A stretch of DNA of 64,000 bases from Streptomyces griseiscabiei. Its GTDB lineage: Bacteria > Actinomycetota > Actinomycetes > Streptomycetales > Streptomycetaceae. Under the pieces are notes generated by a model, which searched no databases, was not told the DNA's origin, and saw only the letters and a program-made list of their open reading frames with translations. Below, piece after piece: positions 25,104 through 58,860 of the stretch (within the stretch, counting starts at the first letter, position 1; each line of letters starts with the position of its first letter). The stretch covers positions 3,699,001 to 3,763,000 of the forward strand of contig NZ_JAGJBZ010000001.1 of the NCBI RefSeq assembly GCF_020010925.1, written 5' to 3'. The position numbers and the translations under genes were made by a program.

Positions 25104-25250
25104 GGTGCGGGTCCGGTGGGGGCTGGTCGCGCAGTTCCCCGCGCCCTGAAAGAGGCCTGCGGCCCTTTCGGGTGCGAAAAGCACGGGGCGCAGCCCCTGC
25201 TTTTCAGGGGCGCGGGGAACTGCGCGAGAAGCCCCACCGGACCCGCACCC
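25104..25250. repeat. paired dispersed palindromic element with inner hairpin
   Basis: Two arms of about 48 bases in inverted order (25104-25151 and 25202-25250) share GGTGCGGGTCCGGTGGGG and CGCAGTTCCCCGCGCCC. Between them is an inner hairpin (AAAAGCACGGGG and GCCCCTGCTTTT, near 25177-25204). It lies between convergent trpE and pfkA and may act as a two-way terminator. Confidence 0.9.
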
Positions 25251-25287
25251 GCCGAAGAACCCCGCACCCCCGAGCCACTGGGCGTCC

Positions 25288-26316
25288 TCAGCCGAAGAAG
25301 ACGCCGACCTCCTCGTACAGCTTCGGATCGACCGTCTTGAGGCGGGCCGTCGCGTCGGCGATCGGGACGCGGACGATGTCGGTGCCGCGCAGGGCGACCA
25401 TCTTGCCGAAGTCCCGGTCACGGACCGCGTCGATCGCGTGGAGACCGAACCGCGTGGCGAGCCACCGGTCGAACGCGGAGGGCGTCCCACCGCGCTGCAC
25501 GTGGCCGAGGACGGTCGTACGGGCCTCCTTGCCCGTCCGTCGCTCGATCTCCTTGGCCAGCCATTCGCCCACACCGGAGAGGCGGACATGGCCGAAGGAG
25601 TCGAGGGAGCCGTCCTTGAGGACCATCTCGCCGTCCTTCGGCATGGCCCCCTCCGCGACGACCACGATCGGCGCGTACGAGGCCTTGAAGCGGGACGTCA
25701 CCCAGGCGCACACCTTGTCGACGTCGAAGCGCTGCTCGGGGATGAGGATGGCGTTGGCGCCGCCGGCGAGGCCGGAGTGGATGGCGATCCAGCCGGCGTG
25801 CCGGCCCATCACCTCCACGACCAGGACGCGCATGTGCGACTCGGCGGTCGTGTGGAGGCGGTCGATGGCCTCCGTCGCGATGCCCACCGCCGTGTCGAAG
25901 CCGAAGGTGTAGTCCGTGGCGGAGAGGTCGTTGTCGATGGTCTTCGGGACGCCTACACAGGGCACGCCGTACTCGTCCGACAGCCGCGCGGCCACCCCGA
26001 GCGTGTCCTCGCCGCCGATGGCGATGAGCGCCTCGACCTCCTGCTTGGCGAGGTTGTCCTTGATCCGGCGGATGCCGTTCTCCTGCTGGAGCGGGTTGGT
26101 GCGCGAGGAGCCGAGGATCGTGCCGCCGCGGGGCAGGATGCCGCGCACGGCGGGGATGTCGAGGCGGACGGTGTCGTTCTCCAGCGGCCCCCGCCAGCCG
26201 TCCCGGAAGCCGACGAAGTCATAGCCGTACTCCTGGACGCCCTTGCGGACGACGCCCCGGATGACGGCGTTGAGCCCGGGGCAGTCGCCGCCTCCGGTGA
26301 GTACTCCGACGCGCAT
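25288..26316 (-). CDS. pfkA: 6-phosphofructokinase
   Basis: A 342-residue group III phosphofructokinase of glycolysis. Motifs are GVLTGGGDCPGLN (nucleotide/phosphate loop), GGEDTLG (101-107), PKTIDND with catalytic Asp128, MGRHAGWIA and HVQRGGTPS. Residue 104 is Asp and the residue before TIDND is Lys, the pair linked in this family with pyrophosphate use, whereas Gly at 104 marks ATP enzymes. The ATG at 26316 has GAAGGG eight bases upstream; an in-frame earlier start is unlikely. It probably corresponds to S. coelicolor pfkA1, one of three paralogues there. Confidence 0.93.
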   Translation of the reverse strand: MRVGVLTGGGDCPGLNAVIRGVVRKGVQEYGYDFVGFRDGWRGPLENDTVRLDIPAVRGILPRGGTILGSSRTNPLQQENGIRRIKDNLAKQEVEALIAIGGEDTLGVAARLSDEYGVPCVGVPKTIDNDLSATDYTFGFDTAVGIATEAIDRLHTTAESHMRVLVVEVMGRHAGWIAIHSGLAGGANAILIPEQRFDVDKVCAWVTSRFKASYAPIVVVAEGAMPKDGEMVLKDGSLDSFGHVRLSGVGEWLAKEIERRTGKEARTTVLGHVQRGGTPSAFDRWLATRFGLHAIDAVRDRDFGKMVALRGTDIVRVPIADATARLKTVDPKLYEEVGVFFG

Positions 26317-26430
26317 GGAAATGTCCCTTCGCCGCGGTTGCCTGACGAGGGCCACGCTAATAGTGATCCAGGTCACTTCGGCATGAACGGGGAGTCAATT
26401 CCGGCGCGTTCCGGCGAATTGGGGCCGATT

Positions 26431-26466
26431 GAGGGTGAGTTGATCAGAGATGATCAACTCACCCTC
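26431..26466. terminator. terminator of macR
   Basis: GAGGGTGAGTTGATC (26431-26445) and GATCAACTCACCCTC (26452-26466) form a perfect 15-bp stem with a six-base loop, 25 bases beyond the macR stop on the minus strand. Its symmetry and the nearby pfkA promoter mean an operator role cannot be excluded. Confidence 0.75.
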
Positions 26467-26490
26467 ACTCTATGGGGTGATTCGTCGCGT

Positions 26491-27231
26491 TTACTCGTCG
26501 TCGAGACCGCGCTCTATGGCATAGCGGACCAGCTCCACCCGGTTGTGGAGCTGGAGCTTGCCCAGGGTGTTCTGGACGTGGTTCTGGACCGTGCGGTGCG
26601 AGATGACGAGGCGTTCGGCGATCTGCTTGTAGCTCAGCCCCTTGGCGACCAGCCGGAGCACCTCGGTCTCGCGGTCGGTGAGCTGCGGGGCCTTGGGCTC
26701 GTCGGCGCCCGGCGCGGGGGCGGGCTCGGAGGCGAGGCGGCGGTACTCGCCGAGGACCAGGCCCGCGAGTCCGGGGGTGAAGACCGGGTCGCCCACGGCC
26801 GTGCGGCGGACCGCGTCGATGAGTTCCTCGGTCGAGGCCGACTTCAGCAGATAGCCCGTCGCGCCGGACTTCACCGCCTCCAGGACGTCCGCGTGCTCCC
26901 CGCTCGCCGAGAGGACCAGCACCCGCAACGCCGGGTTGGCGCCGACCAGTTCCTTGCAGACCTGGACGCCCGGCTTCGCGGGCAGGTTGAGGTCCAGGAC
27001 GAGGACGTCCGGCGCGGCGGCGTGGGCGCGCCGGACCGCCTGCTCGCCGTCGCCCGCCGTGGCGACCACGTCGAACCCGGACTCGGCCAGGTCGCGGGCG
27101 ACGGCGTCGCGCCACATGGGGTGGTCGTCGACCACCATGACCCTGATCGGCCCGCCTCCGCCGGACCGTCCCCCCGCGTCCGCCGGTCCGCCGCCGCGCA
27201 CGCTCTCCTGCCGCTCCACGCGTTCCGTCAT
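26491..27231 (-). CDS. macR: NarL-family response regulator (MacR-like)
   Basis: A 246-residue regulator. After a 28-residue Gly-rich leader comes the receiver domain (about 29-150) with Asp35/Asp36 and phospho-acceptor Asp80 (VLVLDLNLP) and a conserved Lys in YLLKSAS. The C-terminal LuxR-type HTH (about 178-243) has LTDRETEVLRLVAKGLSYKQ. Start and stop overlap with the kinase by four bases (ATGA). By order and kinship it equals MacR of S. coelicolor, which is known to control membrane/lipoprotein genes needed for aerial morphogenesis. Confidence 0.9.
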   Translation of the reverse strand: MTERVERQESVRGGGPADAGGRSGGGGPIRVMVVDDHPMWRDAVARDLAESGFDVVATAGDGEQAVRRAHAAAPDVLVLDLNLPAKPGVQVCKELVGANPALRVLVLSASGEHADVLEAVKSGATGYLLKSASTEELIDAVRRTAVGDPVFTPGLAGLVLGEYRRLASEPAPAPGADEPKAPQLTDRETEVLRLVAKGLSYKQIAERLVISHRTVQNHVQNTLGKLQLHNRVELVRYAIERGLDDE

Positions 27232-28472
27232 CGCTTCTCCGCCTTCCCCCGTACGCCCTTCGGCCCTTGCGCGGCCTTGGGCACCTTCAGTTCCACTTCC
27301 GTGCCCTGCCCGGGCACCGAGATCAGTTCGGCCGTGCCGCCGATGTCGCGCAGCCGTCCCCGGATGGAGAGGGCCACCCCGAGCCGGCCCTCGCCCTCGG
27401 CCTGAGCGAGCCGGCCGTCGGGGATGCCGGGGCCGTCGTCCCGTACGGTCACGATGATCTCGTCGGGCCAGTCCTCGACCAGGATCCAGGCCCGGGCCCC
27501 GTCGCCCGCGTGCTCGCGCACATTGTCCAGGGCCGCGCCGACGGCCGCCGCCAGCTCCCGCGCGGGCCCCGGGGCGAGCGGCACCGGGCCGCCGGGCTCG
27601 GAGAAAGTGACCGTGGCACCGGCGTACGGGGCGAGGAGGGCACGCAGGTCCACGGGGTCCGAGGCGTCTTCGGGCCCGTCCGGTTCGTCCACCGCCCGGA
27701 CCAGCGCTCCGCGCGCCGCGTCCTCGGAGACCCGGGAGACGGGGACCAGGCCGCCGGAGACCAGGGTGCGCAGGGCGACCTCCTGCTCGCCGGCCATCCG
27801 GCCCAGCTCCGCCGACTCGCCGCCGAGGGCGGTGCCGCGCCGCTGGACCATGGCGAGGACCTGGAGAACGCCGTCGTGGATGTCCCGGGCGAGGCGTTCC
27901 CGTTCGCGGGTGGCGGCCTCGATCTCCAGGGCACGGGCGAGGGTGCGCTCGGAGGCGCGGGCGACCTCGACGACGTATCCGATGGCGATGGAGGCGACCC
28001 AGACCAGCAGCACGTTGTGGACGGTGTCGCGGGTGGGGGCGCCCCGGTGGATCAGGTTGGCGACGGCCACCAGCGTGGAGGCGAAGGCGGCCCAGCGCCA
28101 GCCGCCCTTGATGGCGAACGCCAGCACGGCCCCGGCGGTCCATATCGACGGCAGCGTGGGGCCTCCGGCCTCCACCCGCGCGGTCGAGTCGGCGAGCCGG
28201 GTGAGCAGGATGCCGACGATCGCGACGGTGAGGTCGGCCGCCAGGAACCGCTTGGTGCAGCTCGCGGCGTTCGCGACCTTGGGCAGGGTCACCAGGGTCC
28301 AGCCGGCCAGCACCGCGAAGTAGGCGACGGCCAGCCAGGGGCGCTCGAACTTGTCGTAGGCGCTGACGAAGAGGCCGACGGCGTAGATCGTCGTCAGGAC
28401 CCGGTAGCCGGTGAGCGCACGCCACAGCGGCTGCTCGACCGACATCGTCATGACCCGCTCGCGCTTCGGCAT
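27228..28472 (-). CDS. macS: MacS-family sensor histidine kinase
   Basis: A 414-residue kinase with about five or six N-terminal membrane segments (20-170), no extracytoplasmic sensor domain, a HisKA_3 dimerisation domain with His199 in RLARDIHDGVLQ, and a HATPase domain with DNVREHA and DDGPGIP. It is the cognate kinase of the overlapping regulator. The start at 28472 (GGTGGGGG upstream) is used; internal ATGs at codons 8 and 10 are alternatives. The signal is likely membrane-derived. Confidence 0.9.
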   Translation of the reverse strand: MPKRERVMTMSVEQPLWRALTGYRVLTTIYAVGLFVSAYDKFERPWLAVAYFAVLAGWTLVTLPKVANAASCTKRFLAADLTVAIVGILLTRLADSTARVEAGGPTLPSIWTAGAVLAFAIKGGWRWAAFASTLVAVANLIHRGAPTRDTVHNVLLVWVASIAIGYVVEVARASERTLARALEIEAATRERERLARDIHDGVLQVLAMVQRRGTALGGESAELGRMAGEQEVALRTLVSGGLVPVSRVSEDAARGALVRAVDEPDGPEDASDPVDLRALLAPYAGATVTFSEPGGPVPLAPGPARELAAAVGAALDNVREHAGDGARAWILVEDWPDEIIVTVRDDGPGIPDGRLAQAEGEGRLGVALSIRGRLRDIGGTAELISVPGQGTEVELKVPKAAQGPKGVRGKAEKR

Positions 28473-28538
28473 GCCCCCACCCCACCCCGCCCACGACGGT
28501 CGTGTCCGGGAACGCGACCGTACCCGGGAACGCGGCCG

Positions 28539-29354
28539 TTACGAAGCCGGCCGGTCCTTGTCGCCCCGGGTCCGGTCCGCCTGTTCCCGCTGCTCCCTGG
28601 CCGCGTGTTCCTTCTCCGCCTTGGCGAGGGCGGCCCGGGCGGCCTTGTCGGCCTCCCTCTCCGCCTTGGCCGCGTCCGCGATCTGCCGCTTGGCGGCGGT
28701 CGCGTAGATGTCGACGTACTCCTGGCCGGAGAGCTTCATGATCTCGTACATGACCTCGTCGGTCAGCGCCCGCAGGACGAAGCGGTCGTGCTCCATGCCC
28801 TGGTAGCGGCTGAAGTCGAGGGGCTTGCCGATCCGGATGCCGGGGCGCATCACCTTCGGCAGGACCTTGCCGGGGGGCTGGATCTTCTCCGTGTCGATCA
28901 TGGCGACGGGGATCACGGGCGCGCCGGTGGCGAGTGCCACCCGGGCCAGGCCGCCGGGCTTGCCCCGGTAGAGGCGGCCGTCGGGCGAGCGGGTGCCCTC
29001 GGGGTAGATCCCGAACAGCTCACCGCTCTCGATGACGTCTATCCCGCTCTTGATCGCGGCCTCGCCCGCGCCGCGGGCACCCGAGCGGTCCACCGGGAGC
29101 TGGCCGACGCCCTTGAAGAAGGCGGCCGTCAGCTTTCCCTTGATCCCGGGGGTGGTGAAGTACTCGGCCTTCGCGATGAAGGTGACCTTGCGGTCGAGGA
29201 CCGCGGGGAGGAAGAACGAGTCCGAGAAGGAGAGGTGGTTGCTCGCGAGGATCGCGGCGCCCTCGGCCGGAATGTTCTCCAGGCCCTCCACCCAGGGCCT
29301 GAAGGTGACCTTGAGCGGTCCCCCGATAGCGACCTTCATCGCGCCGTACAACAA
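28539..29354 (-). CDS. 1-acyl-glycerol-3-phosphate acyltransferase (PlsC type)
   Basis: A 271-residue acyltransferase with motif I SNHLSFSD (His about 40, Asp about 45), motif III GIYPEGTRSPDG and a later motif VIPVAMI. It should form phosphatidic acid or acylate a related lipid at the membrane. The C-terminal 60 residues are a charged Ala/Lys/Glu helix not needed for catalysis. A TTG start at 29354 has GAGAGG eight bases upstream; an ATG five codons later is an alternative. It equals the acyltransferase Rv2182c in the conserved block. Confidence 0.9.
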   Translation of the reverse strand: MLYGAMKVAIGGPLKVTFRPWVEGLENIPAEGAAILASNHLSFSDSFFLPAVLDRKVTFIAKAEYFTTPGIKGKLTAAFFKGVGQLPVDRSGARGAGEAAIKSGIDVIESGELFGIYPEGTRSPDGRLYRGKPGGLARVALATGAPVIPVAMIDTEKIQPPGKVLPKVMRPGIRIGKPLDFSRYQGMEHDRFVLRALTDEVMYEIMKLSGQEYVDIYATAAKRQIADAAKAEREADKAARAALAKAEKEHAAREQREQADRTRGDKDRPAS

Positions 29355-29417
29355 CCGAGTGCCTCTCTGTGATCCGTGGATCAGACCTTAACCCGGACGC
29401 CGGAGGATGCGTCCTGC

Positions 29418-29467
29418 GCCCCTGGTCGGTGTCGGCCCCCCGCCGCGCGAAGCCCCTGGTCGGTGTC
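29418..29467. repeat. 16-bp direct repeat in divergent promoter region
   Basis: GCCCCTGGTCGGTGTC occurs exactly twice, at 29418-29433 and 29452-29467, starts 34 bases apart, between the acyltransferase and esterase genes. It could be a pair of binding sites or a duplication remnant. Confidence 0.6.
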
Positions 29468-29536
29468 AGTGCGGTCGCGTACGGTGAACCACATCCGGAC
29501 TCATTCACACCCTTCTCATGAACAGGAGACCGAACC

Positions 29537-30424
29537 GTGCCGGTCCTTCCTGGAGCCGAGCCGTACCACCACGAGGGCGGGGAGGTCGGAGTCCTCCTCT
29601 GCCACGGATTCACCGGGTCACCGCAGTCGCTGCGCCCCTGGGCGGAGTATCTCGCCGCGCGGGACCTGACCGTCGCGCTGCCCCTGCTGCCGGGACACGG
29701 CACCCGCTGGGAGGACATGCGCCCCACCGGCTGGCAGGACTGGTACGCGGAGGTGGACCGCGAGCTGCGGGTCCTGCGCGAGCGCTGTGCGCACGTCTTC
29801 GTCGCGGGGCTGTCCATGGGCGGCGCGCTGGCGCTGCGGCTGGCCGCGAAGCACGGGGACGCGGTCACCGGCGTGATGGTCGTCAACCCGGCCAACAAGG
29901 TGCACGGCCCGGCCGCGCACGCCCTCCCCCTGCTCCGGCACTTCGTCCCCACCACCAGGGGGATCACCAGCGACATAGCCAAGGAGGGCGTCGAGGAGGT
30001 CGGGTACAGCCATGTGCCGCTGCACGCGGCGCACTCGCTGCGCGGTTTCCTGCGCCTGGTCGACGGCGAACTGCCCCAGGTGACCCAGCCGTTGCTGCTG
30101 CTGCACAGCCCGCGGGACCATGTGGTGCCGCCCGTCGACTCCGAGCGGGTCCTCGGCCGGGTGTCGTCGACGGACGTCACGGAGATCCTGCTGGAACAGA
30201 GCCACCATGTCGCGACGTTGGACCACGACGCGGACCGGATCTTCGAGGAGAGCCACGCGTTCGTCACCCGGCTCGTGGCGGAGTCCGGGGCGGCTCGGAT
30301 GAAGGAGTCCGGCGCGGAATCCGTACAGCAGGCTGAATCCGTACAGCAGTCTGATCCGGGGTCCGTGGAGCGGAGCGGTCCGGGATCCTTGGAGCAGAGG
30401 GAAGGGACGGCCACTGGTGGCTGA
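29537..30424 (+). CDS. alpha/beta-hydrolase, carboxylesterase type
   Basis: A 295-residue hydrolase close to bacterial Est30/monoacylglycerol-lipase-like esterases. The oxyanion HGFTGSPQ block lies at about 23-30, the nucleophile is in GLSMGG (Ser about 94), with Asp in HSPRDHVVP and His in SHHVATLD. The start is GTG at 29537 with AGGAG upstream. The last 35 residues are a repeated polar tail (two AESVQQ/ESVQQ units and Gly-Ser-rich parts) absent from relatives. Its stop overlaps the following membrane protein gene by 8 bases. Confidence 0.9.
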   Translation: MPVLPGAEPYHHEGGEVGVLLCHGFTGSPQSLRPWAEYLAARDLTVALPLLPGHGTRWEDMRPTGWQDWYAEVDRELRVLRERCAHVFVAGLSMGGALALRLAAKHGDAVTGVMVVNPANKVHGPAAHALPLLRHFVPTTRGITSDIAKEGVEEVGYSHVPLHAAHSLRGFLRLVDGELPQVTQPLLLLHSPRDHVVPPVDSERVLGRVSSTDVTEILLEQSHHVATLDHDADRIFEESHAFVTRLVAESGAARMKESGAESVQQAESVQQSDPGSVERSGPGSLEQREGTATGG

Positions 30425-31145
30425 GCACGACTCCGAGCGTGAGCCGGAGGAGAAGGGAGCGCCCCTCGGCGCCTCGCCCGGCGACTCCCCGGGCGGTTCC
30501 ACGGGCGGTTCTGCCGGCGGTTCCGCGGGCGCCTCGTCCGGTGAGACGCCGGGCGGGCCGCCGTCCGAGGAGCAGCACGCGGGCGAGGAGCAGCACGTGC
30601 CGTTCGACGAGGACGCGGCGTGGCAGGCCATCGTCGCCGGGTTCGGGGACGAACCGCCGGACCCTCCGGGCGCCAAGCCGTTCAGGTCGGTGGAGGACCT
30701 GGCCCTGATCGAGGCCGAGCCGGAGGACACCCCGGACAAGTCCCCCGATGCCGCCGCCGGCCCCGCGGCCCCCAAGCCGCTGGGCAGCTCGGTCGCGTTC
30801 GCCCCCGGTGTCGGCGCGGGTCCACGGGACTACAGCGTGCCCGACCCGGTCGGCGAGGACCCGGACAAGGGCGACGAGGACGACGGCGAGGACGACGAGG
30901 GCCACTTCGTGCCGCCCGAGCCGCCCCCGCTCCCCGAGGCCGATGCGACCTCCAAGTTCGCCTGGCTGGGGGTGATCGGCGGCCCGGTCCTGCTGCTGCT
31001 CGCCGTGCTGCTCGGCTGGGAGATGACCTGGTGGCTCACGACTGTGGGCATCGGCGGCTTCCTCGGCGGCTTCGCCACGCTGGTGATGCGGATGAAGGGC
31101 GACGACGAGGACGACGGCGACCCGGGGCGGGGCGCGGTCGTCTGA
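30417..31145 (+). CDS. conserved membrane protein with acidic disordered N-region
   Basis: A 242-residue protein of unknown function. The first 180 residues are Gly/Ser/Pro/Asp/Glu-rich and likely disordered, with a poly-acidic run near 150. Two membrane helices follow (about 186-205 and 209-228), ending in an acidic tail. It starts at GTG 30417 inside the end of the esterase gene, so it is translationally coupled to it. This tail arrangement is common in Streptomyces and gives no hint of mechanism. Confidence 0.7.
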   Translation: MAEHDSEREPEEKGAPLGASPGDSPGGSTGGSAGGSAGASSGETPGGPPSEEQHAGEEQHVPFDEDAAWQAIVAGFGDEPPDPPGAKPFRSVEDLALIEAEPEDTPDKSPDAAAGPAAPKPLGSSVAFAPGVGAGPRDYSVPDPVGEDPDKGDEDDGEDDEGHFVPPEPPPLPEADATSKFAWLGVIGGPVLLLLAVLLGWEMTWWLTTVGIGGFLGGFATLVMRMKGDDEDDGDPGRGAVV

Positions 31146-31174
31146 CCCACCGTCACCGCCGTCTCGTAGGAGGA

Positions 31175-31211
31175 CGAGGGCCCGCCCGGGAACGTTCCGG
31201 GCGGGCCCTCG
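31175..31211 (+). terminator. terminator after the esterase operon
   Basis: CGAGGGCCCGCCCGG (31175-31189) pairs with CCGGGCGGGCCCTCG at 31197-31211 through an imperfect stem continuing to the loop (one extra G). It lies 30 bases after the stop. The rest of 31212-31379 holds only a micro-repeat (ACGCTG, AGGAAGGC) and the sigma-factor promoter. Confidence 0.85.
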
Positions 31212-31379
31212 CCGCTGTCGCACGACGGTGAGGGCGAGGGCGACCCTGACGCTGACGCTGACGAGGAAGGCGAGGAAGGCAGGGCAAGGGAACTCGATTC
31301 CGGTGAACGGCGAAGTACGGGTGCACGACCCGAACGAGCCCAGGCCTTCGAGGTGTTCGGACGAACGAGAGGAGCTCCG

Positions 31380-33072: not shown

Positions 33073-33085
33073 CGGGCGGGACCCC

Positions 33086-33841: not shown

Positions 33842-33889
33842 ATGGATCAAGATACGCCCAAGAGCTCGGGGCATTTGTCCGTTCGCGAC

Positions 33890-33950
33890 TGCGGGTGCGT
33901 CGTGGCTGTTCGCGCAGTTCCCCGCGCCCCTGAAGGGCGCGGGGTTGCCG
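33890..33950. repeat. single dispersed-element arm with own hairpin
   Basis: Contains GCGGGTGCG, CGCGCAGTTCCCCGCGCCCC and then a perfect hairpin (CCCCGCGCCC at 33920-33929, GGGCGCGGGG at 33935-33944). It lies directly after glkA on the minus strand and likely terminates it. Confidence 0.85.
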
Positions 33951-33961
33951 CCAGCCGGTGG

Positions 33962-42049: not shown

Positions 42050-42086
42050 GTGGCTGGTCGCGCAGCTCCCCGAGCCCCCTACCGGG
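42050..42086. repeat. single degenerate arm of dispersed element
   Basis: TGGCTGGTCGCGCAGCTCCCC followed by GAGCCCC is a variant of the arm core seen at 25124-25146. It abuts the stop codon of the mannosyltransferase gene. Confidence 0.65.
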
Positions 42087-43398: not shown

Positions 43399-44655
43399 GT
43401 GGCTCAGACGGACATGACGGGCGCCCGGCGGCTCCCGTTCGGGCTGCTCACGCTCTGGGGCGTCACCCGGCTGCTCCTGCTGCTGTTCGTCTTCAAGGTG
43501 TACGTGTTCCCGGGCCCGGACGTCACCACCGACGTCTCGGCGATCTACCACGGCTGGTACGGGACCCTGCGCGGCGGAACGTATCCGCTGGACGACGTCA
43601 CCTGGCAGTACCCACCCGCCGCCGCGCTCGCGATCCTCTCCCCCGCGCTGCTGCCCTTCCTGGACTACGCGTCGGCGTTCTTCGTCCTCGCCCTCCTCGC
43701 CGACCTCGTGGTCCTCACGCTGCTGCTGTACGCGGGCGGGCGTCCCGGGAAGACCTGGCGCGGCGCGTGGGTGTGGGCGGTGGGCCTGCCGCTGCTGGGC
43801 CCGACCGCCTACGCCCGCTACGACGTGATGGTGACGGCGGTGGCGGTCGCCGCCCTGCTCGCGGGCAGTCGCCGTCCGCGCCTGATGGGGGCGCTGACGG
43901 CCTTCGCGGCCCTGCTGAAGGTGTGGCCGGCGCTGCTGCTCCTGGGCGCCCGCGGGCGTACGGCCTGGGCGTGGGCGGTGGGCACGGGGCTGGTGGTGGC
44001 CGGGCTGTTCGCGGCCTCCCTGCCGGGCGCCTTCGCCTTCCTGACGTTCCAGCGGGACCGGGGCACCGAGGTGGAGTCGCTGGGCGCCCTCGTCTTCCAT
44101 GTGGCCCGGCAGTTCGGCTGGGACGGCGAGGTGCTGCTCAACTACGGCTCGGTGGAATTCCTCGGCGCGTATGTGGGCGCCGTGAGCGACGCGGCGCTGC
44201 TGCTCAGCGGGGCGGCCTTCGCCTGGCTGCTGCTGTGGCGGGTGCGGGCGCGGCGGTTCGCTCCGCACACGCTCGCGGACGCGGCGTTCGTGGCGGTGCT
44301 GATGTTCACGGCCACGAGCCGGGTGATCAGCCCCCAGTACATGGTCTGGCTGGTCGGGCTCGCGGCCGTCTGTCTCTGCTTCCGGGCGAGCCGGATGGGG
44401 GTCCCGGCGGGCATGGTCCTGGCCGCGTCCTTCGTGACCGTCCTGGAGTTCCCGGTCTGGTTCGCCCATGTCGTCGCCAGCGACTGGCTGGGCGTCACCC
44501 TCCTCTTCGTCCGCAACGGGCTGCTGGTCCTGGCGGCGGTGCGCTCCGCGGTCGTGCTGTGGCAGGACACGGTGGTGCTGCCGCACGGGCCGGGCCGGGG
44601 TGCGCTGTCGGGTGCGGGCCCGCGGGACTTCTCGCGCAGTTCCCCGCGCCCCTGA
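43399..44655 (+). CDS. polytopic membrane protein, GT87/DUF2029-like
   Basis: A 418-residue protein with about nine to ten membrane segments. It resembles integral-membrane mannosyltransferases (GT87 family): the early loop YHGWYGTLRGGTYPLDDVTWQYPPAAA is the region where the catalytic acidic residues of this superfamily lie. It may extend a mannolipid made by the divergent PimB-like enzyme. The GTG start at 43399 follows ACAGGG. The last 20 residues (GALSGAGPRDFSRSSPRP) are read from the left arm of the dispersed repeat, so the tail was captured from non-coding DNA. Confidence 0.78.
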   Translation: MAQTDMTGARRLPFGLLTLWGVTRLLLLLFVFKVYVFPGPDVTTDVSAIYHGWYGTLRGGTYPLDDVTWQYPPAAALAILSPALLPFLDYASAFFVLALLADLVVLTLLLYAGGRPGKTWRGAWVWAVGLPLLGPTAYARYDVMVTAVAVAALLAGSRRPRLMGALTAFAALLKVWPALLLLGARGRTAWAWAVGTGLVVAGLFAASLPGAFAFLTFQRDRGTEVESLGALVFHVARQFGWDGEVLLNYGSVEFLGAYVGAVSDAALLLSGAAFAWLLLWRVRARRFAPHTLADAAFVAVLMFTATSRVISPQYMVWLVGLAAVCLCFRASRMGVPAGMVLAASFVTVLEFPVWFAHVVASDWLGVTLLFVRNGLLVLAAVRSAVVLWQDTVVLPHGPGRGALSGAGPRDFSRSSPRP

Positions 44656-44969
44656 AAAGCAGGGGCTACGCCCCGTGCTTTTCCCCGCCTGACCGCCGCC
44701 TTTCCAGCCCGCCTGACCAGCGCCTTTCCCGGCCGCCCACCCGGCGCCTTTCCCGGCCGCCTGACCGGCGTCTTCCGGCCCGCCTGATCGCCGCTTTCAC
44801 GCCCGCGCACCCGCCATCTGCGGATCCGCCCGCCCCCGCCTTCGAGACCGCCCACGCCCGCCTTCAGCAAGCCCGCCCTCCTCCCCCCGCCGCCTTCCAG
44901 GCCCGCAAGGGCCTGGGCTTTAGGGGCGCGGGGAACTGCGCGAGAAGCCCCACCGGGCCGGCACCCGAC
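44611..44969. repeat. large dispersed element with minisatellite loop
   Basis: The left arm (44611-44657, CGCGCAGTTCCCCGCGCCCC) runs into an inner hairpin (AAAAGCAGGGGC-TACG-CCCCGTGCTTTT, 44655-44682). The inverted right arm (44918-44969) ends the element. About 235 bases of tandem repeat lie between them. The left arm includes the stop codon of the membrane protein gene. Confidence 0.9.
44685..44875 (+). repeat. 24-bp minisatellite
   Basis: About eight units with decay toward the right. The first three are CCGCCTGACCGCCGCCTTTC.., CCGCCTGACCAGCGCCTTTC.. and CCGCCCACCCGGCGCCTTTC.., each exactly 24 bases; later units are 22-24 bases. It lies in the loop of the dispersed element and contains no supported gene. 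Confidence 0.85.
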
Positions 44970-50330: not shown

Positions 50331-50363
50331 CCTCACCCCACTGTCTGTGCGGTGCCCGCTCCC

Positions 50364-51835: not shown

Positions 51836-51900
51836 CCGCGTCTCCGCCGCCCCTGCCGGCCGCCGACGGCCGTCGCCTGCCGTCGCCGGATGAAGAAATC

Positions 51901-51917
51901 CTCATCCCGGCCTCATC
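51901..51917. promoter_or_regulatory. 11-bp-phased CTCATC repeats upstream of a two-component operon
   Basis: CTCATC at 51901-51906 and 51912-51917 have an 11-base period, about 35 bases before the small exported protein gene. GGATGA..TCATCC also forms an inverted pair at 51888-51908. An OmpR-type regulator bound as a dimer on one DNA face fits this layout. Confidence 0.55.
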
Positions 51918-51951
51918 CGCGCCGACCGGTCCGCTCCGCAGGATCGTCCCC

Positions 51952-52269: not shown

Positions 52270-53698
52270 CAGGCCGCTCGGGCGGGTCTCGGCCCGGGTC
52301 CGGATCCTGCTGTGGCTGCTGCTCGTGATGACCGTGGCGCTGGCCTCGGTCGCGACGACGACGCGGTCGATCCTGCTGCGGGACGTGGAGCAGCGCATCG
52401 ACGAGCTGCTCGCGCAGGAGGCCGGGGAGTTCACCAACCTCCAGGCGCACGGCGTCGATCCGCAGACCGGCGCCCCCTTCACCGAGCCGTCACGGCTGCT
52501 CAAGGTCTTCCTGGAGCGGCAGAACGCCGACCTCGACGAGGAGCTGATCGGCCTCGTCGGCCGGAGCGGGCGCGCCCCCTCACAGCTCTTCCAGCAGCGC
52601 GAGATCCCCGTCCCGCTGCCCCTGCACGAGGACGGCGACGCCCGGCGGCGCATCTTCGAGTCGCCCGCCTCCATGGGCACGCTGGAGCGGGCGGCCGGGG
52701 AGATCCGCTGGGCGAAGGTGGAGGTGGCCCGGCACGGCTCCGAGGCGGACGCGGCGTTCGTGGTCGCCTTCCACCCGGCGAGCGAGCAGGCCCGCGCCGA
52801 CGAGGTGTTCCAAGTGCTGCTCGCCATCTCCGGGGTCGCCCTGCTGATGACCACCGGGATCGCCTGGGTGGTCGCGGGCCGCATCCTCAAGCCCGTCCGG
52901 CTGGTGCGCTCCGCCGCCGCCCAGCTCACCGAGCAGGACCTCACCCGGCGCATCCCGGTGCACGGCCGGGACGACGTGGCCGCGCTCGCCGAGACGTTCA
53001 ACGCGATGCTCGACCGGCTGGAGCGGGCGTTCGCCGCGCAGCGGGAGTTCGCCGACGACGCGGGCCACGAGCTGCGCACCCCCATCACCATCGTGCGCGG
53101 CCATCTGGAGCTGATGGGCGACGATCCCGCCGAGCGCGAGGAGACGGTCCGGCTGGTCACCGACGAACTGGACCGGATGAGCCGCATCGTCGAGGACCTG
53201 CTGCTGCTCGCCAAGGCCGAGCGGCCCGACTTCGTCCGCCCCGAGCCGGTCCAGCTCGCCGAACTCACCGCCGATGTCTACGTCAAGGCCCGCACCCTGG
53301 GCGACCGCGACTGGCAGCTCGCCGAAGTCGCCGACCTGGAGGCCGAGTTGGACCCCCAGCGGATCACCCAGGCGATGGTCCAGCTCGCCCAGAACGCCGT
53401 GCAGCACACCACCACCGGCCAGACCATCCGCGTCGGCTCCCGCGCCGAGGGCCGGGCGGTCGAGCTGTACGTCGTCGACTCGGGGCCCGGGGTGCAGCCG
53501 CAGGACGCCGAGGTGGTCTTCGAACGGTTCCGGCGCGGCACGGCCCGGCGCGGCGCCCGCGGCTCCGGTGCCGGGCTCGGCCTCGCCATCGTCCGCGCGA
53601 TCGCCGAGGCCCACGGCGGCCGCGTGCGGCTGCACGACACCGAGGGCGGCGGCGCGACCTTCGTCCTGACCCTGACCCTGGAAGGGGCCCTCCCGTGA
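52256..53698 (+). CDS. OmpR-coupled sensor histidine kinase
   Basis: A 480-residue kinase. The first membrane segment is about 14-34, then an outer sensor domain (about 40-190), a second segment (about 195-215), HAMP (about 218-270), HisKA with the phospho-acceptor His in DDAGHELRTPI, and a HATPase domain with NAVQH, DSGPG and GSGAGLGLAI. The GTG at 52256 is taken; starts up to 84 bases earlier lie inside the upstream gene and are also possible. It overlaps the response regulator by four bases (GTGA). Confidence 0.88.
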   Translation: MTTADRPLGRVSARVRILLWLLLVMTVALASVATTTRSILLRDVEQRIDELLAQEAGEFTNLQAHGVDPQTGAPFTEPSRLLKVFLERQNADLDEELIGLVGRSGRAPSQLFQQREIPVPLPLHEDGDARRRIFESPASMGTLERAAGEIRWAKVEVARHGSEADAAFVVAFHPASEQARADEVFQVLLAISGVALLMTTGIAWVVAGRILKPVRLVRSAAAQLTEQDLTRRIPVHGRDDVAALAETFNAMLDRLERAFAAQREFADDAGHELRTPITIVRGHLELMGDDPAEREETVRLVTDELDRMSRIVEDLLLLAKAERPDFVRPEPVQLAELTADVYVKARTLGDRDWQLAEVADLEAELDPQRITQAMVQLAQNAVQHTTTGQTIRVGSRAEGRAVELYVVDSGPGVQPQDAEVVFERFRRGTARRGARGSGAGLGLAIVRAIAEAHGGRVRLHDTEGGGATFVLTLTLEGALP

Positions 53699-54357
53699 AC
53701 CGCATTCTCATCGTCGAGGACGAGGAACGCATCGCCTCCTTCGTCGAGAAGGGCCTGCGCGCGGGCGGCTTCACCACGACCGTGGTCGGCGACGGCGACT
53801 CGGCCTACGAGTACGCCCTGACCGGCGGCTTCGACCTGGTCGTCCTCGACATCGGCCTGCCCGGCCGCGACGGTTTCACCGTCCTGCGCGAGCTGCGCGA
53901 GGCCCGTGTCACCGTGCCGGTCATCGTGCTGACCGCCCGCGACTCGGTACGCGACACCGTGGCCGGCCTGGAGGGCGGCGCCGACGACTGGATGACCAAG
54001 CCGTTCCGCTTCGAGGAGCTCCTGGCGAGGGTCCGTCTCCGGCTGCGTACGGCGGCCAGGGCCCCCGAGGTGACGATGCTGCGCAGCGGCGACCTGACGC
54101 TGGACCTGCGCACCCGACGCGCGCGGTCCGGGGAGCGCCTGGTGGACCTGACCGCCAGGGAGTTCGTCCTCATGGAACTCTTCCTGCGCCACCCCGGCCA
54201 GGTCCTGTCGCGGGAGCAGATCCTGTCGCACGTCTGGGGCTACGACTTCGACCCGGGCTCGAACATCGTGGACGTGTACGTACGGGCGCTGCGCAAGAAG
54301 CTGGGAGCGGCCCAGCTGGAGACGGTGAGGGGCATGGGCTACCGCCTGCCGACGTGA
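53695..54357 (+). CDS. OmpR-family response regulator
   Basis: A 220-residue regulator with a receiver domain (1-118; EDE at 8-10, phospho-acceptor Asp52 in VVLDIGLPG, Lys in MTKPF) and a winged-helix DNA-binding domain (about 125-218; LTAREFVLMELFLRHPGQ, SREQILSHVWGYDFDPGSN). It starts at GTG 53695 within the kinase stop. It is the likely reader of the phased TCAT repeats on both sides of the operon. Confidence 0.95.
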   Translation: MNRILIVEDEERIASFVEKGLRAGGFTTTVVGDGDSAYEYALTGGFDLVVLDIGLPGRDGFTVLRELREARVTVPVIVLTARDSVRDTVAGLEGGADDWMTKPFRFEELLARVRLRLRTAARAPEVTMLRSGDLTLDLRTRRARSGERLVDLTAREFVLMELFLRHPGQVLSREQILSHVWGYDFDPGSNIVDVYVRALRKKLGAAQLETVRGMGYRLPT

Positions 54358-54363
54358 AGCTTC

Positions 54364-54412
54364 CTTCATAGACGGCTCATCAAGGACTCACCCCCCGCTT
54401 GAACCCTTGATG
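54364..54412. promoter_or_regulatory. 11-bp-phased TCAT repeats and hairpin before transporter
   Basis: TCAT at 54366, TCAT at 54377 and TCAC at 54388 are spaced by 11 bases between the response regulator stop and the transporter start. The same stretch has an inverted repeat (CATCAAGG 54378-54385, CCTTGATG 54405-54412). Either a regulator site for the adjacent OmpR protein or a terminator is possible. Confidence 0.45.
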
Positions 54413-54414
54413 AC

Positions 54415-55830
54415 GTGACCCTGAACCTCCGCCTGGCCACCACCCTCTGCATAGCACTCTCCCTCTGCGCCCTGCTGGCCGTCCCCGGCAACTTCCCCGG
54501 CCTCGGCGGAGAGGCCCGCCTCACCCTCATCGTCTTCACGCTGGCGACCGCCGCGTGGATCGGCACCCCCATCGACGACACGTACATCGCCCTCGGCGCG
54601 GGCCTCGCCCTCACCGTCACCGGGGTCATCAGCGACGACACCCTCTTCGGCACCCTCGGCGACGACACCGTATGGCTGCTGATCTGCGCGTTCGTGCTGG
54701 CGGCGGCGGTGACCCGGACGGGTCTGGCCGGTCGCGCCGCCGCGTTCCTGGTGAGCGGCGCCCGAACCGTACGGCAGCTGACACACCTCACGACCGCCGC
54801 ACTCGTGGTGACCGCCTTCGCCGTGCCGGCCACCTCGGGCCGCGCGGCCCTCGCGCTCCCCGTGTTCCTGGCCCTCGCCAAGGCGCTGGCCGACCGGAGA
54901 CGACTGGTCGTGATGCTGGCGCTGCTGTTCCCGACCGTGATCCTTCTGTCGGCGGTGGCGACCCTGATCGGCGCGGGAGCGCATCTGATCACCGTGTCGG
55001 TGCTGTGGGAGGCGACCGGCGACCGGATCGGCTTCACCGAGTGGCTGCTGCTCGGCCTGCCGCTGGCGATCGTGTCGTCCCATCTGGCGGCCGAGGCCGT
55101 CCTGCTGACGACGACCCGGCGCGAGGACCGCCGGGGCCCGGTGCGGATCACGGTGGAGGAGATCCAGCTGCACAGCGAGCGGCCGGTGACCGGCCCCTGG
55201 TCCCCCGCCGAGTCTCGCTGTGCCCTGCTGCTGGCCACGGTCGTGGTCCTGTGGTGCAGTGAGCCGCTGCACCGGGTCTCTCCGGCGGTGGTCGCACTGA
55301 TCGGCGCGGTCGTCGCCGCCTCACCGGCCCTCGGCACCGTACGGCTGAAGGACGCACTGCGGACCGTGCCCTGGTCGATGCTGCTCTTCATGGCCGCGAC
55401 GATGGCGATGGGCGTCGCGCTCAGCGACTCGGGAGCGGCGAAGTGGCTGGTCTCCGGGCTGCCCCCGGGGGTCACCCCGCTGGTGTTCCTGGTGGTGGTC
55501 GTGGTGGTCAGCACGGCCGCGCATCTGGTCCTGCAGTCCCGGTCGGCCCGCTCGTCGGTGCTGGTCCCGCTGGTCGTCGCGGCGGCCGTGGGCGCCGGTG
55601 TCAGCCCGGTCGCCGCAGCGCTCGCCTCCACCGCCGCGGCGGGCTTCTGCCACACCCTCCCGGCCTCCGCGAAGCCGGTCGCCCTCTTCGCCGACCTGCC
55701 CGGCACCCCCACCTACACCCCCCGCGACCTGCTGCGCCTCTCCGCCGTCCTGGCCCCGCTGACCGCCGCCCTGGTCGTGCTCTTCGCGGTGGTGGTGTGG
55801 CCGCTGCTGGGTGTCCCGCTCGTCCCGTAA
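54415..55830 (+). CDS. SLC13-like anion transporter
   Basis: A 471-residue polytopic membrane protein with about eleven to twelve segments. It resembles the DASS/SLC13 and ArsB permeases, with the inverted-repeat fold shown by two halves having similar TG and PATSGRAAL/AALASTAAAGF motifs. Substrates of the family are di- and tri-carboxylates, sulfate or phosphate; the Ser-Asn-Thr signature is not clear. A GTG at 54415 is the start. It lies just after the response regulator and before glycerate kinase, so control by the regulator and carboxylate uptake are plausible. Confidence 0.8.
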   Translation: MTLNLRLATTLCIALSLCALLAVPGNFPGLGGEARLTLIVFTLATAAWIGTPIDDTYIALGAGLALTVTGVISDDTLFGTLGDDTVWLLICAFVLAAAVTRTGLAGRAAAFLVSGARTVRQLTHLTTAALVVTAFAVPATSGRAALALPVFLALAKALADRRRLVVMLALLFPTVILLSAVATLIGAGAHLITVSVLWEATGDRIGFTEWLLLGLPLAIVSSHLAAEAVLLTTTRREDRRGPVRITVEEIQLHSERPVTGPWSPAESRCALLLATVVVLWCSEPLHRVSPAVVALIGAVVAASPALGTVRLKDALRTVPWSMLLFMAATMAMGVALSDSGAAKWLVSGLPPGVTPLVFLVVVVVVSTAAHLVLQSRSARSSVLVPLVVAAAVGAGVSPVAAALASTAAAGFCHTLPASAKPVALFADLPGTPTYTPRDLLRLSAVLAPLTAALVVLFAVVVWPLLGVPLVP

Positions 55831-55854
55831 CCACTCTTCAGGAGCCCTGAGAAC

Positions 55855-57087
55855 ATGCTGAACCGAGTCGCCGTAGCCCCCAGTGGCTTCAAGGAGTCCC
55901 TGTCCGCCGAGGCCGCCGCCGACGCCATCGCGGAGGGCGTCCGCCGCGTCCTGCCCCACGCGGAGGTGGATCTGATCCCGCTGGTGGACGGCGGCGAGGG
56001 CACCGCCGCCGCGCTGGCCACCGCCACCGGCGGCCGGCTGGTCCCCCGGCTCGCCACGGGCCCGGTCGGCGATCCGGTCGACACCCACTTCGCCCTGCTC
56101 GGCACGCACGACCCGGCGGCGACGGGGATCGCCGTGGTCGAGATGGCCGCCGTCGCGGGCCTCACCCTCGTCCCCCGGGCCCTCCGCGATCCCGGCGCCA
56201 CCACCACGTACGGCGTCGGCGAACTGATCCGCGCCGCGCTCGACACCGGCGTACGGCGGATCCTGGTCGGCTGCGGCGACTCCGGCACCTCGGACGGCGG
56301 GGCCGGTGCCCTCCAGGCGCTGGGCGCCCGGCTCCTGGACGCGCGGGGCGCCGAACTCCCTGCGGGAGGGCGGGAGTTGGGCCGTCTGGACCGGATCGAC
56401 CCGTCCGGTCTGGATCCCCGCCTCAGGGAGGTGGAGCTGCTGGTGGCCTGCAACCCGTTCAACGTGCTCTGCGGCGACCGGGGGGTCGCCCGGGTCTTCG
56501 GCCCGCAGAAGGGGGCGACACCGGAGCAGGTCGAGGAGCTGTCGGCGGGCCTGGAGAACTGGGCGCGCGTCCTCACCCGTGACCTCGCCCCGCCGAGCAC
56601 GGACCTCCGCGCCGGCCCGGGGACCGGTGCCTCCGGCGGGCTGGGCGCCGGGCTGGCGGCCCTGGGCGCCCGGCTGCTCCCCCGCTTCGAGGTGCTCCTG
56701 GGCCATCTGGACCTCGACGCCCGGCTGGCCCGCGCCGACCTGGTCGTCACGGCCGAGGGCGCCCTCGACCACCAGACGCCCCGCGGCAAGGTCCCCGCCG
56801 AGGTGGCCCGCCGCGCCAAGCTGTACGGCCGCCCGGTGCTGGCCCTCGCGGGCACCCTCGGCGAAGGCGCGCACGAGGTGCCGGGTGTCGACGCCTGCAC
56901 CGGCATCCTGCCCGCCCCGATGGCCCTCGCCGAGGCCCTGGTCCGCGCGAGCGAACTGCTCACCGACGCCACCGAGCGGGCCCTGCGGATGATCGTGCTG
57001 GGCGCCCGGGTGACGGCGGGTTCAGCCGCCGCGGATCACCCGCCGGGTCAGACGGCGGGGACGCAACGCCCGTCCTCCGTACGGTAG
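55855..57087 (+). CDS. glycerate kinase, GlxK family
   Basis: A 410-residue glycerate 2-kinase. Signature blocks are VAPSGFKESLSAEAAADAI, PLVDGGEGTA, GCGDSGTSDGGAGALQALGA, FGPQKGAT and VTAEGALDHQTPRGK. It phosphorylates D-glycerate in glyoxylate/serine degradation. The ATG at 55855 has CAGGAG about ten bases upstream. The final 30 residues beyond the family end are Ala/Gly-rich. Its stop lies inside the convergent aminotransferase gene, an overlap of 40 bases. Confidence 0.93.
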   Translation: MLNRVAVAPSGFKESLSAEAAADAIAEGVRRVLPHAEVDLIPLVDGGEGTAAALATATGGRLVPRLATGPVGDPVDTHFALLGTHDPAATGIAVVEMAAVAGLTLVPRALRDPGATTTYGVGELIRAALDTGVRRILVGCGDSGTSDGGAGALQALGARLLDARGAELPAGGRELGRLDRIDPSGLDPRLREVELLVACNPFNVLCGDRGVARVFGPQKGATPEQVEELSAGLENWARVLTRDLAPPSTDLRAGPGTGASGGLGAGLAALGARLLPRFEVLLGHLDLDARLARADLVVTAEGALDHQTPRGKVPAEVARRAKLYGRPVLALAGTLGEGAHEVPGVDACTGILPAPMALAEALVRASELLTDATERALRMIVLGARVTAGSAAADHPPGQTAGTQRPSSVR

Positions 57088-58409
57088 TTCCACTGGGCGC
57101 CGTTGCTCACCAGCTCCTTCACCGCGCCCACGAACCGTTCCACGTGCTCGTCGGGGGTGCCCGCGCCGAAGCTCACCCGGATCGCGTTGAGGGACCGCTC
57201 GCCGGGCGCGGCCTCGGGGGCGCCGCACTCGCCCTGCGTCCCCGGGTCGCTGCCGAGCAGGGTGCGCACGAGGGGGTGGGCGCAGAAGAGGCCGTCGCGG
57301 ACGCCGATGCCGTACTCGGCGGAGAGCGCGGCGGCGAAGTGGGAGCTGTTCCAGCCCTCGACGACGAAGGAGATCACGCCGACACGCGGGGCGTCGTCCC
57401 CGAAGAGGGAGAGGATCCGCACCTCGGGCACCTCGGCGAGCCCGGCCCGTACAGCGTCGATCAGATACCGCTCGCGGGCGACCAGCGTGTCGAACCCGGC
57501 CTCGGTGAGGGCCTTGCAGGCGGAGGCGATGGAGTAGGCGCCGATGACGTTGGGCGAGCCGGCCTCGTGGCGGGCGGCACTCTCGTGCCACTCGACGTCC
57601 ACACCGCCGTCCGTGCGCCGGGTCACCTTGCGGGAGGCGCCGCCGCCGGCGAGGTACGGCTCGGCCGCGGTGAGCCAGTCGGCGCGGCCGGCGAGCACGC
57701 CCGAGCCGAAGGGCGCGTACAGCTTGTGGCCGGAGAAGGCGACCCAGTCGACGTCCAACTCCTGTACGGAGACGGCGTGGTGGGGCGCCAGCTGGGCCGC
57801 GTCGAGCACGATCCGCGCACCGTGCGCGTGCGCGGCGGCGGCCAGCTCACGCACCGGCCAGATCTCCCCGGTGACATTGGAGGCCCCGGTGACGCACACC
57901 AGCGCCGGCCCGTACGGGTCGCGCCCCGCGAGCGCCGACTCCAGCGTGGCGACGGCCTGTTCCGGCGTCCGGGGCGCGTCCAGATAGGTCACCCGCGCGT
58001 CCCGCCAGGGCAGCAGCGAGGCGTGGTGCTCGGTCTCGAAGACGAAGACCTGGCAGTCGGCGGGGAGGGCGGCGGCGAGGAGGTTCAGCGAGTCGGTGGT
58101 CGACCGGGTGAACACCACCTGGTCGCCGTCCCGGCAGTCGAGGAACTCGGCGACGGTCCTCCGGGCGTTCTCGAAGAGGTCCGTCGACAGCTGGGAGAGG
58201 TACCCGGCGCCCCGGTGCACGCTCCCGTAGTACGGCGCGTACGCCGCCACGTCGTCCCATACGCGCTGCAGGGCCGGGGCGCTGGCCGCGTAGTCGAGGG
58301 CGGCGTAGGTGACCTCGCCACCGGTGACGAGCGGGACGGTGACATCCCGTCCCAGAACGGGCAGCGGGGCACAAACGGACTGGGTGGCGGCAAGGGTGGA
58401 GACAGACAT
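57048..58409 (-). CDS. class V aminotransferase, cysteine desulfurase-like
   Basis: A 453-residue PLP enzyme. The fold type I blocks include VFTRSTTDSLNLL, ETEHHASLLPW, GASNVTGEIWPV, DAAQLAPHH and the PLP lysine in FSGHKLYAPFGSG. The cysteine that desulfurases use for persulfide is not evident, so it could instead be a selenocysteine-lyase-like or isopenicillin-epimerase-like enzyme. GGGAG lies seven bases before the ATG. A SAM-IV riboswitch about 150 bases upstream ties it to sulfur or methionine metabolism. Confidence 0.87.
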   Translation of the reverse strand: MSVSTLAATQSVCAPLPVLGRDVTVPLVTGGEVTYAALDYAASAPALQRVWDDVAAYAPYYGSVHRGAGYLSQLSTDLFENARRTVAEFLDCRDGDQVVFTRSTTDSLNLLAAALPADCQVFVFETEHHASLLPWRDARVTYLDAPRTPEQAVATLESALAGRDPYGPALVCVTGASNVTGEIWPVRELAAAAHAHGARIVLDAAQLAPHHAVSVQELDVDWVAFSGHKLYAPFGSGVLAGRADWLTAAEPYLAGGGASRKVTRRTDGGVDVEWHESAARHEAGSPNVIGAYSIASACKALTEAGFDTLVARERYLIDAVRAGLAEVPEVRILSLFGDDAPRVGVISFVVEGWNSSHFAAALSAEYGIGVRDGLFCAHPLVRTLLGSDPGTQGECGAPEAAPGERSLNAIRVSFGAGTPDEHVERFVGAVKELVSNGAQWNYRTEDGRCVPAV

Positions 58410-58557
58410 GGCGAACTCCCGTGAGGGGCATGCGAAAGCAAGGCATGCGGAGGAAAGAGAGAAAGAGAAAAGGGGTGCGCGGAGGCGGGGCTCGGCGGCC
58501 CTATCGCATTCGCTTGCTCACGGAAGACTCCCTCGAAGCCGCGCTTGCCGTAGACCT
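58410..58557 (-). other. leader between SAM-IV aptamer and aminotransferase
   Basis: This 148-base leader carries a 27-base homopurine/homopyrimidine tract (58449-58475) just before the ribosome binding region and a weak GGGC/GCCC hairpin around 58484-58500. It probably is the expression platform. No gene is seen. Confidence 0.5.
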
Positions 58558-58653
58558 CGCTGCCTACGGCCCGGTCTTCACCCGGGGCACCCCGCCACGG
58601 AAGGAGGGTTGCCGGACAGCCAGCCGGGGCTATGGGCTGTCACTCATGACCTG
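58558..58653 (-). promoter_or_regulatory. SAM-IV riboswitch
   Basis: Read on the minus strand, the segment has GGTCATGAGTG, CCCCGGCTGGCTG, CCGGCAACCCTCC and GGGGTGCCCCGGGTGAAGACC in order and spacing. This is the SAM-IV aptamer of actinobacteria, which shares its core with SAM-I and adds a pseudoknot. It should lower expression of the aminotransferase when S-adenosylmethionine is plentiful. Confidence 0.9.
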
Positions 58654-58747
58654 AACCAGAACGTACGTGAAGTGATCGCCGCGCCGCAACCTGTGTCCGG
58701 ATCGCGGGATGGGGCGCCTTCCGGAGTGGGGGTGCGGTTCGTGGGCG

Positions 58748-58860
58748 GGTGCGGGTCCGGTGGGGCTTCTCGCGCAGTTCCCCGCGCCCCTGAAAAGCAG
58801 GGGCCTGGTCCTTCAGGGGCGCGGGGAACTGCGCGACCAGCCCCCACCGGACCCGCACCC
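58748..58860. repeat. paired dispersed palindromic element
   Basis: Arms of about 47 bases (58748-58794 and 58813-58860) are inverted and share GGTGCGGGTCCGGTGGGG and CGCGCAGTTCCCCGCGCCCC with the copy at 25104-25250. The inner hairpin is truncated to GAAAAGCAGGGG. It lies 7 bases after the trpD stop. Confidence 0.92.

Follow-up and report, generated by a model that had tools for sequence, protein, structure and literature searches.

The window, meaning the whole 64-kb stretch of Streptomyces griseiscabiei DNA analysed here, carries related palindromic sequences near several gene ends, which raises the question of what kind of repeat they represent, why they lie where they do and how they came to be dispersed. 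With up to three mismatches allowed, a 20-base core has nine matches in the window versus 0.10 expected, the largest count among 100 shuffles being 1. The matches (5831-, 25128+/25207-, 33911+, 42059+, 44633+/44923- and 58771+/58816-) account for all six copies or part-copies reported by the first-pass annotation:

5827..5875, minus strand: single diverged short-loop arm in the gap between TetR and CrtI-like genes; core with two mismatches at 5831-5850
25104..25250, no strand assigned: inverted arm pair containing two inner hairpins, in the gap where anthranilate-synthase-like and PFK genes converge; core and outer 18-mer
33890..33950, plus strand: single arm past the 3' end of the minus-strand ROK glucokinase gene; exact core at 33911-33930
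42050..42086, plus strand: single diverged arm immediately past the 3' end of the minus-strand GT4 gene; core with two mismatches
44611..44969, no strand assigned: inverted pair with inner hairpin and degenerate repeats; core matches at 44633+/44923-
58748..58860, no strand assigned: inverted pair with short spacer, flanked by the 3' end of trpD and the next gene's SAM-IV riboswitch; core and outer 18-mer

The three complete inverted pairs of the earlier description (25104-25250, 44611-44969 and 58748-58860) are likewise recovered. Both arms at 25104-25249 and at 58748-58859 match the outer 18-mer perfectly, while 44948-44965 departs from it at two positions. The inner AAAAGCA.GGGG hairpin, claimed for two pairs, is present in 25104-25250 and 44611-44969, with only a stub in 58748-58860. 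The cores of the 44611..44969 pair are 310 nt apart; the called GT87 reading frame enters the left arm at 44.6 kb and stops at a TGA (44653-44655) immediately behind the core. The core of 42050..42086 is found 9 nt from the GT4 stop. Placement beside stop codons, described as general, does not extend to the 5831 copy, which lies 397 nt beyond the stop of TetR and 97 nt ahead of the CrtI-like gene. HMM searches identify the neighbours as TetR (4787-5434, plus strand, PF00440), an anthranilate-synthase-like fused protein and PFK at about 25.1 kb, ROK glucokinase, a GT4 glycosyltransferase (PF00534), GT87 (PF09594) and TrpD (TIGR01245); the GT4 gene is the putative pimB. The Rfam matches in the window are SAM-IV and TPP riboswitches only.

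The evidence supports a REP-like repeat family of Streptomyces whose unit is a directional arm of about 60 nt. Each arm consists, in order, of a GC-rich hairpin half (GGGGCGCGGGG), a loop, GCGCG and a tail of about 40 nt. The loop exists in two versions, either AACT or a 28-29-nt cassette such as CTGTRTCGATNTGCGGCTCCGCCGCGTGG, and the length classes are discrete, with 97 loops of 4 nt, four of 28-29 nt and four of other lengths in 864 kb of the host. Arms occur singly, as inward-facing pairs or in tandem, mostly 3' of stop codons. In 464 kb mostly picked for copies, 58 clusters comprise 30 singles, 24 inward pairs and four other multi-arm arrangements; inward pairs outnumber outward ones by 24 to 1, and nine of 29 singles are opposed in orientation to the nearest upstream gene end. 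A division into two defined ends (arm types A and B) was also considered and rejected: the excess of A/B pairing in the host (Fisher P=0.033) was not reproduced elsewhere, being absent both in 90 pairs from named loci (P=0.38) and in 14 pairs from G264 and G312 (P=0.46).

The exact core occurs 385 times in the host genome versus 0 for the reversed control, a high copy number. In 464 kb not picked for copies, the 23 clusters occupy 9 convergent, 13 tandem and 1 divergent gaps, corresponding to a depletion of divergent gaps (P=0.0017) and an excess of convergent ones (P=0.0097). The 464 kb mostly picked for copies give 27 convergent, 29 tandem and 2 divergent gaps (P 2e-8 for convergent, 3e-8 for divergent). 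None of the 23 and none of the 58 clusters lies inside a called gene; genes were called by an in-house script, and gene-end overlaps of 45 nt or less were tolerated, as at 44.6 kb. Within the tandem gaps, the core is 1-397 nt from the upstream stop (median 57), 11 of 13 cores lie within 72 nt, and the stop is closer than the next start in 9 of 13. The distribution across the genus is patchy. With the host counted, the exact core is present at 1 to 731 copies in 52 of 101 Streptomyces genomes and absent from the other 49. Eight plasmid records match, all from Streptomyces and covering 23-32% of the query. Carriage by phages is rejected, since 50,697 phage records gave no match and IMG/VR did not contain the exact core.

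Comparison with related genomes indicates that sites are largely shared and that their content varies. At least one of three relatives has arms at 25 of the 27 host sites compared; in the four-genome comparison, 34 gaps contain arms, 28 of them in at least two genomes and 6 in one genome only. The short loop of one species is replaced by the long loop in another at 11 of the 28 shared sites. Within the window, the 33890..33950 site carries the long-loop version in G312 and G124. The 25104..25250 gap contains arm-derived sequence of differing form in all six close relatives fetched, none being seen in G319, and the 58748..58860 gap has a related element in all five relatives compared. Inspection by eye in a six-genome comparison places the 5827..5875 arm in G264 and G244, and it was not seen in G312, G124 and G366; at 44611..44969 the gene end, also judged by eye, reads differently in G244, G124 and G366. 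The first-pass annotation had regarded the same copies at the same sites with ordinary divergence as evidence against mobility. That outcome is half realised: the sites are mostly the same, but the divergence is of no ordinary kind, since loops, tails and inner modules differ in place.

The surroundings of the exchanged loops are informative. Flank identity averages 0.71/0.76 for the 26 same-site short/long pairs, which are drawn from few sites and are not independent, versus 0.60/0.66 for different-site pairs. The clearest case is site 74 in the host and G264, where the two 40-nt flanks are 0.95 and 0.97 identical. As judged by eye on the tree, the loop changes in both directions: G264 has turned a long loop into a short one at sites 74 and 307, and the opposite change is seen in the host at site 41 and in G312 at sites 378 and 254. 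Core identity, conditioned on at most four mismatches, is similar for orthologous and non-orthologous arms (0.98 versus 0.96 for host/G264). In host/G264, host/G312 and G264/G312 the initial 15 nt of the tail are site-specific (0.84 versus 0.69-0.73), which is not so for host/G244 (0.64 versus 0.67, n=5). This loop pattern is better explained by ectopic gene conversion over short patches, or by template switching, than by new insertion; the sequence comparison is compatible with either process. The import of whole, already different gaps from another species may also be a source of loop differences.

Independent insertions into a hotspot could likewise place short- and long-loop copies at one site. 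Such a history would suit the change of arm orientation between genomes at sites 134, 254 and 324 and the weak right flanks (0.68) of switch sites 75 and 208 and left flank (0.68) of site 258; with slightly different anchoring, left flanks are 0.65 at site 35 and 0.57-0.70 at site 254. It is nevertheless unlikely, considering that junctions and site-specific tails agree outside the loop at sites 74 and 41, and that 8 of 11 switch sites have one or more pairs with both flanks at 0.72 or higher, compared with 10 of 1189 different-site pairs.

Folding covered five window elements or parts of them, 44611..44969 being represented by its right-arm portion only. The pair at 25104..25250 reaches -128.8 kcal/mol on the minus strand (z -13.2), the pair at 58748..58860 has z -13.8 and the single arm at 33890..33950 z -4.2; the 42050..42086 arm (z +0.55) and the 86 nt surrounding the right arm at 44.9 kb, folded in isolation (z +0.63), are not more stable than their shuffles. 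No T run after the hairpin was seen by eye at the 33.9-kb single arm or the other arms listed. Position and folding are consistent with the putative role as terminator or mRNA stabiliser; the two poor folds, the lack of a canonical U-tract, the nine opposed singles and the tandem gaps whose stop is not closer than the next start weigh the other way. A rival view holds that the arms are plain GC-rich terminators, their likeness being due solely to selection and owing nothing to copying from site to site. Their location at gene 3' ends agrees with it, as do the 42-kb copies across species, where by eye the stem letters are kept and the hairpin loop varies, and site 324, where a plain GC hairpin occupies this position in G264. 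Selection on stems would not be expected to yield an identical 20-nt core at hundreds of sites, two discrete loop versions or the lack of the exact core in 49 of 101 Streptomyces genomes, and this explanation is very unlikely.

RAYT transposases are the usual explanation for REP families. The elements could be of REPIN type, that is, inverted pairs moved by a REP-associated tyrosine transposase (RAYT), with singles as decayed halves. The large excess of inward over outward pairs (24 versus 1), the two pairs giving the best folds of the five pieces and the patchy copy number among Streptomyces genomes are in line with this origin. However, PF01797 (Y1_Tnp) has no match in the 99.94% complete host with its 385 cores, whereas five of 14 control genomes match. 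Of eight relatives examined, six carry between one and six Y1 matches; the two lacking any are G014 (107 cores) and G001 (79% complete, 130 cores). Relatives with five or six Y1 matches (G244, G124 and G366) show 12, 4 and 7 core matches in 80 kb, compared with 12 and 6 for G264 and G312, which have one each. The two arms of a pair resemble each other no more closely than arms drawn from different pairs (0.707 versus 0.731 permuted). PMC6006769 restricts Actinobacteridae to Y1 subclass 1.1, which also counts against a RAYT. Mobilisation by RAYT is rejected because the host lacks PF01797 and copy number does not follow it among the relatives examined; the REPIN-type reading as a whole is quite improbable. 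The suggestion of a non-autonomous mobile element survives in part: patchy copy number and the 6 of 34 single-genome sites speak for it, and against it stand the absence of a Y1/RAYT in the host, the sharing of 25 of 27 host sites, the unmatched arms of pairs and the gaps inspected by eye, where no target-site duplication or clean filled-empty pair was seen and flanks diverge.

Finally, a MITE, i.e., a deletion derivative of an insertion sequence with the arms as terminal repeats, is highly improbable: at locus L062 an IS5-family transposase gene does lie between two inverted arms 1.1 kb apart, but this 901-bp IS is bounded by imperfect terminal repeats of its own (GGGGTGCTTTCAGAA...) which, together with a TTA duplication, fall within the inter-arm space; it therefore landed in the element. 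Arms as ends of the IS5-family element are rejected on these grounds; a second full copy of the IS lies just outside the tail of an arm, and terminal repeats shared with an autonomous element, a feature of MITEs, are not seen for the one IS found between arms.

Taken together, the elements probably form a REP-like family with a hairpin role at gene ends, spread by conversion or template switching and not by RAYT. Copies would be kept at 3' ends because the transcribed hairpin ends or protects mRNAs. Dispersed copies would spread and be homogenised mainly via short-patch ectopic gene conversion or hairpin-provoked template switching, with new sites arising occasionally and RAYT transposition not acting as the driver. 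A more specific picture is proposed tentatively: a transposase-free REP-like family with exchangeable loop cassettes, in which conversion over tens of bases between dispersed copies would spread them and change their state (short or long loop; tail on the left, on the right or on both sides), letting gene ends across the chromosome evolve in concert.

A host with 385 exact cores and no RAYT runs against the usual RAYT-based account of REPs. Higgins reportedly proposed gene conversion for REPs in 1988. The two-state loop is a natural marker of in-place exchange between very short repeats, and therefore this old proposal becomes countable. On the practical side, the copies lie at gene ends in an antibiotic-producing genus. 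No description of the family was found in the titles and abstract beginnings among the literature matches listed, nor any paper printing the core; subscription journals were mostly outside the search, so this is weak evidence of absence. Streptomyces is not mentioned in the main text of PMC12306157, PMC3733652, PMC3116915, PMC2267715 and PMC6006769, and appears in PMC1590033 in a reference entry only.

Among known systems, Streptomyces transcript ends are described in PMC8269248 and PMC12207403 as stable GC hairpins tens of nucleotides after stops with few uridines. The present elements share the stable GC hairpin past the stop and the near lack of a U-tract; those hairpins are classes derived from RNA 3'-end maps, whereas ours is a repeat family. 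With the REP/BIME elements of enterobacteria and Pseudomonas the family has in common short imperfect palindromes, hundreds of extragenic copies, frequent location near gene 3' ends and occurrence as singles, inverted pairs and clusters, so that the label REP-like, resting on high copy number, extragenic position, palindromic structure and 3'-end placement, is upheld. It differs in having no RAYT in the genome, two interchangeable loop versions and long tails. Most REPs carry a GTAG or CGTC tag at one end, according to PMC3733652. REPINs, as described in PMC3116915, are also two inverted repeats forming a hairpin, the window pairs here spanning 113-359 nt. REPINs are tied to RAYTs, whereas the present host has none, singles outnumber pairs (30 versus 24 clusters), and the two arms of a pair are independent of each other.

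Within the window, nine sites match the 20-base core when as many as 3 mismatches are allowed, where 0.10 are expected. The six copies reported by the first-pass annotation lie at the positions it gave; its placement of the 5.8-kb copy requires a small correction. The genome-wide search that it proposed bears out a high-copy family: across the 8 contigs (10.6 Mb) of the host genome, exact matches to the core number 205 and 180 on the two strands, and the reversed control has 0.

The alignment of host copies makes a directional arm evident, GGGGCGCGGGG-AACT-GCGCG, with a variable hairpin half ahead of it and a tail of roughly 40 nt after it (consensus from 96 exact-core arms). The loop is either short, AACT, or long, a cassette of 28-29 nt. 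Arms are arranged singly, as inward-facing pairs or as direct arrays; two host loci carry arrays that differ from the usual inward-facing pairs:
L072:12388-12574, direct array of seven cores, 27-28-nt spacing
L074:6169-6360, direct array of three cores, 86-nt spacing

By eye, tandem repeats or extra palindromic modules (AAAAGCAGGGGC..., GGCCTGCGGCC...) occupy the space between paired arms, and their order varies. The spacer of the paired element at host locus L069:7525-7901 contains about a dozen copies of a unit of about 21 bp, gacggcggacgtcggcggact. Across 30 host pairs, partner arms resemble each other no more than arms of different pairs do (0.707 vs 0.731 permuted), with 95% of permutations equalling or exceeding the observed likeness; the outer palindrome therefore behaves as two independent copies.

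Of 101 evenly drawn Streptomyces genomes, one of them the host, 52 contain the exact core (1 to 731 copies) and 36 the long-loop 24-mer (23 matches in the host); 34 of the latter also carry the exact core. The maximum, nearly twice the host count, belongs to the 9.0-Mb genome G075, with only 5 long-loop matches. The core is absent from all 16 genomes examined outside Streptomyces; a 29-base extension of it appears, among the matches listed, on contigs of Actinacidiphila epipremni (at least 2) and Streptacidiphilus jeojiense (at least 1).

Placement was assessed with approximate, scripted gene calls based on codon usage. A 464-kb stretch picked without regard to copies (the window plus the preceding 400 kb) contains 23 clusters, none of them inside a called gene; 13 occupy tandem gaps, 9 convergent gaps and 1 a divergent gap, the last class making up 32% of intergenic bases. 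The upstream stop is closer than the downstream start in 9 of the 13 tandem gaps. A second 464 kb, mostly chosen for copies and sharing the window with the first set, gives 58 clusters (27 convergent, 29 tandem, 2 divergent). For single arms in tandem or convergent gaps, the mRNA of the closest gene end carries the GGGGCGCGGGGAACTGCGCG strand in 20 of 29 cases and the opposite strand in 9. Two riboswitches are present in the window:
12435-12546, + strand, TPP riboswitch
58536-58651, - strand, SAM-IV riboswitch
The 58.7-kb element is flanked by the trpD stop on one side and the SAM-IV aptamer on the other.

At the 25.1-kb gap, all six close relatives fetched have arm-derived sequence in differing forms, and none was seen in the more distant G319. 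A comparison of the host with three other Streptomyces genomes (G264, G312, G244) over 464 kb resolved 253 of 301 orthologous gaps in at least three of the four. Arms occupy 34 gaps, of which 28 hold them in two or more genomes and 6 in a single one, and 25 of 27 host sites are common to at least one relative. At 11 of the 28 shared sites, one genome has the AACT loop and another the 28-29-nt loop. This is clearest at site 74, where host and G264 match at 95% and 97% in their 40-nt flanks and, within the arm, differ in the loop. These two genomes are sisters (support 0.967) in a tree built from 10,746 columns of five coding segments, on which, by eye, the loop appears to have changed in both directions, short to long and long to short. 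Since AACT is missing from the long form, a simple insertion or deletion does not interconvert the two, and the simplest source of the switched loop is a donor copy. Against this, flank similarity is weak at sites 75, 208 and 258, the near tail of host and G244 does not track the site, and arm orientation also differs at sites 134, 254 and 324, G244 being opposite to the host.

No Y1 transposase was found in the host, and among eight relatives Y1 matches do not track copy number where both are known. The sole transposase found between arms is of the IS5 family, in a 901-bp insertion with TTA duplicated:
L062:1263-2169 (host C1 ~567,262-568,168), IS5-family insertion (NF033580) in the inter-arm space of a paired element
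Its second full copy (host locus L310) lies immediately outside the tail of an arm. Ectopic conversion or template switching, by which existing sites would be altered, is therefore the best account of their change. Site 324 has an arm in the host and a plain GC hairpin in G264, which suggests that ordinary terminator hairpins may become family members by conversion.

In predicted folds, two inverted pairs reach z of about -13 and one single arm -4.2; two other folded pieces are no better than shuffles. Taken with Streptomyces 3'-end maps (PMC8269248, PMC12207403), in which many of the ends have a stable hairpin and are poor in uridines, the modelled folding of pairs and single makes a 3'-end role likely for the family.

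With regard to known repeats, the family, judged on the single IS examined, lacks the terminal repeats that characterise MITEs, and it differs from REPINs, inverted REP pairs tied to a REP-associated tyrosine transposase (RAYT, Y1 type), in that no such enzyme accompanies it in the host. In copy number, location and palindromic structure it agrees with REPs; the family is classed as REP-like.
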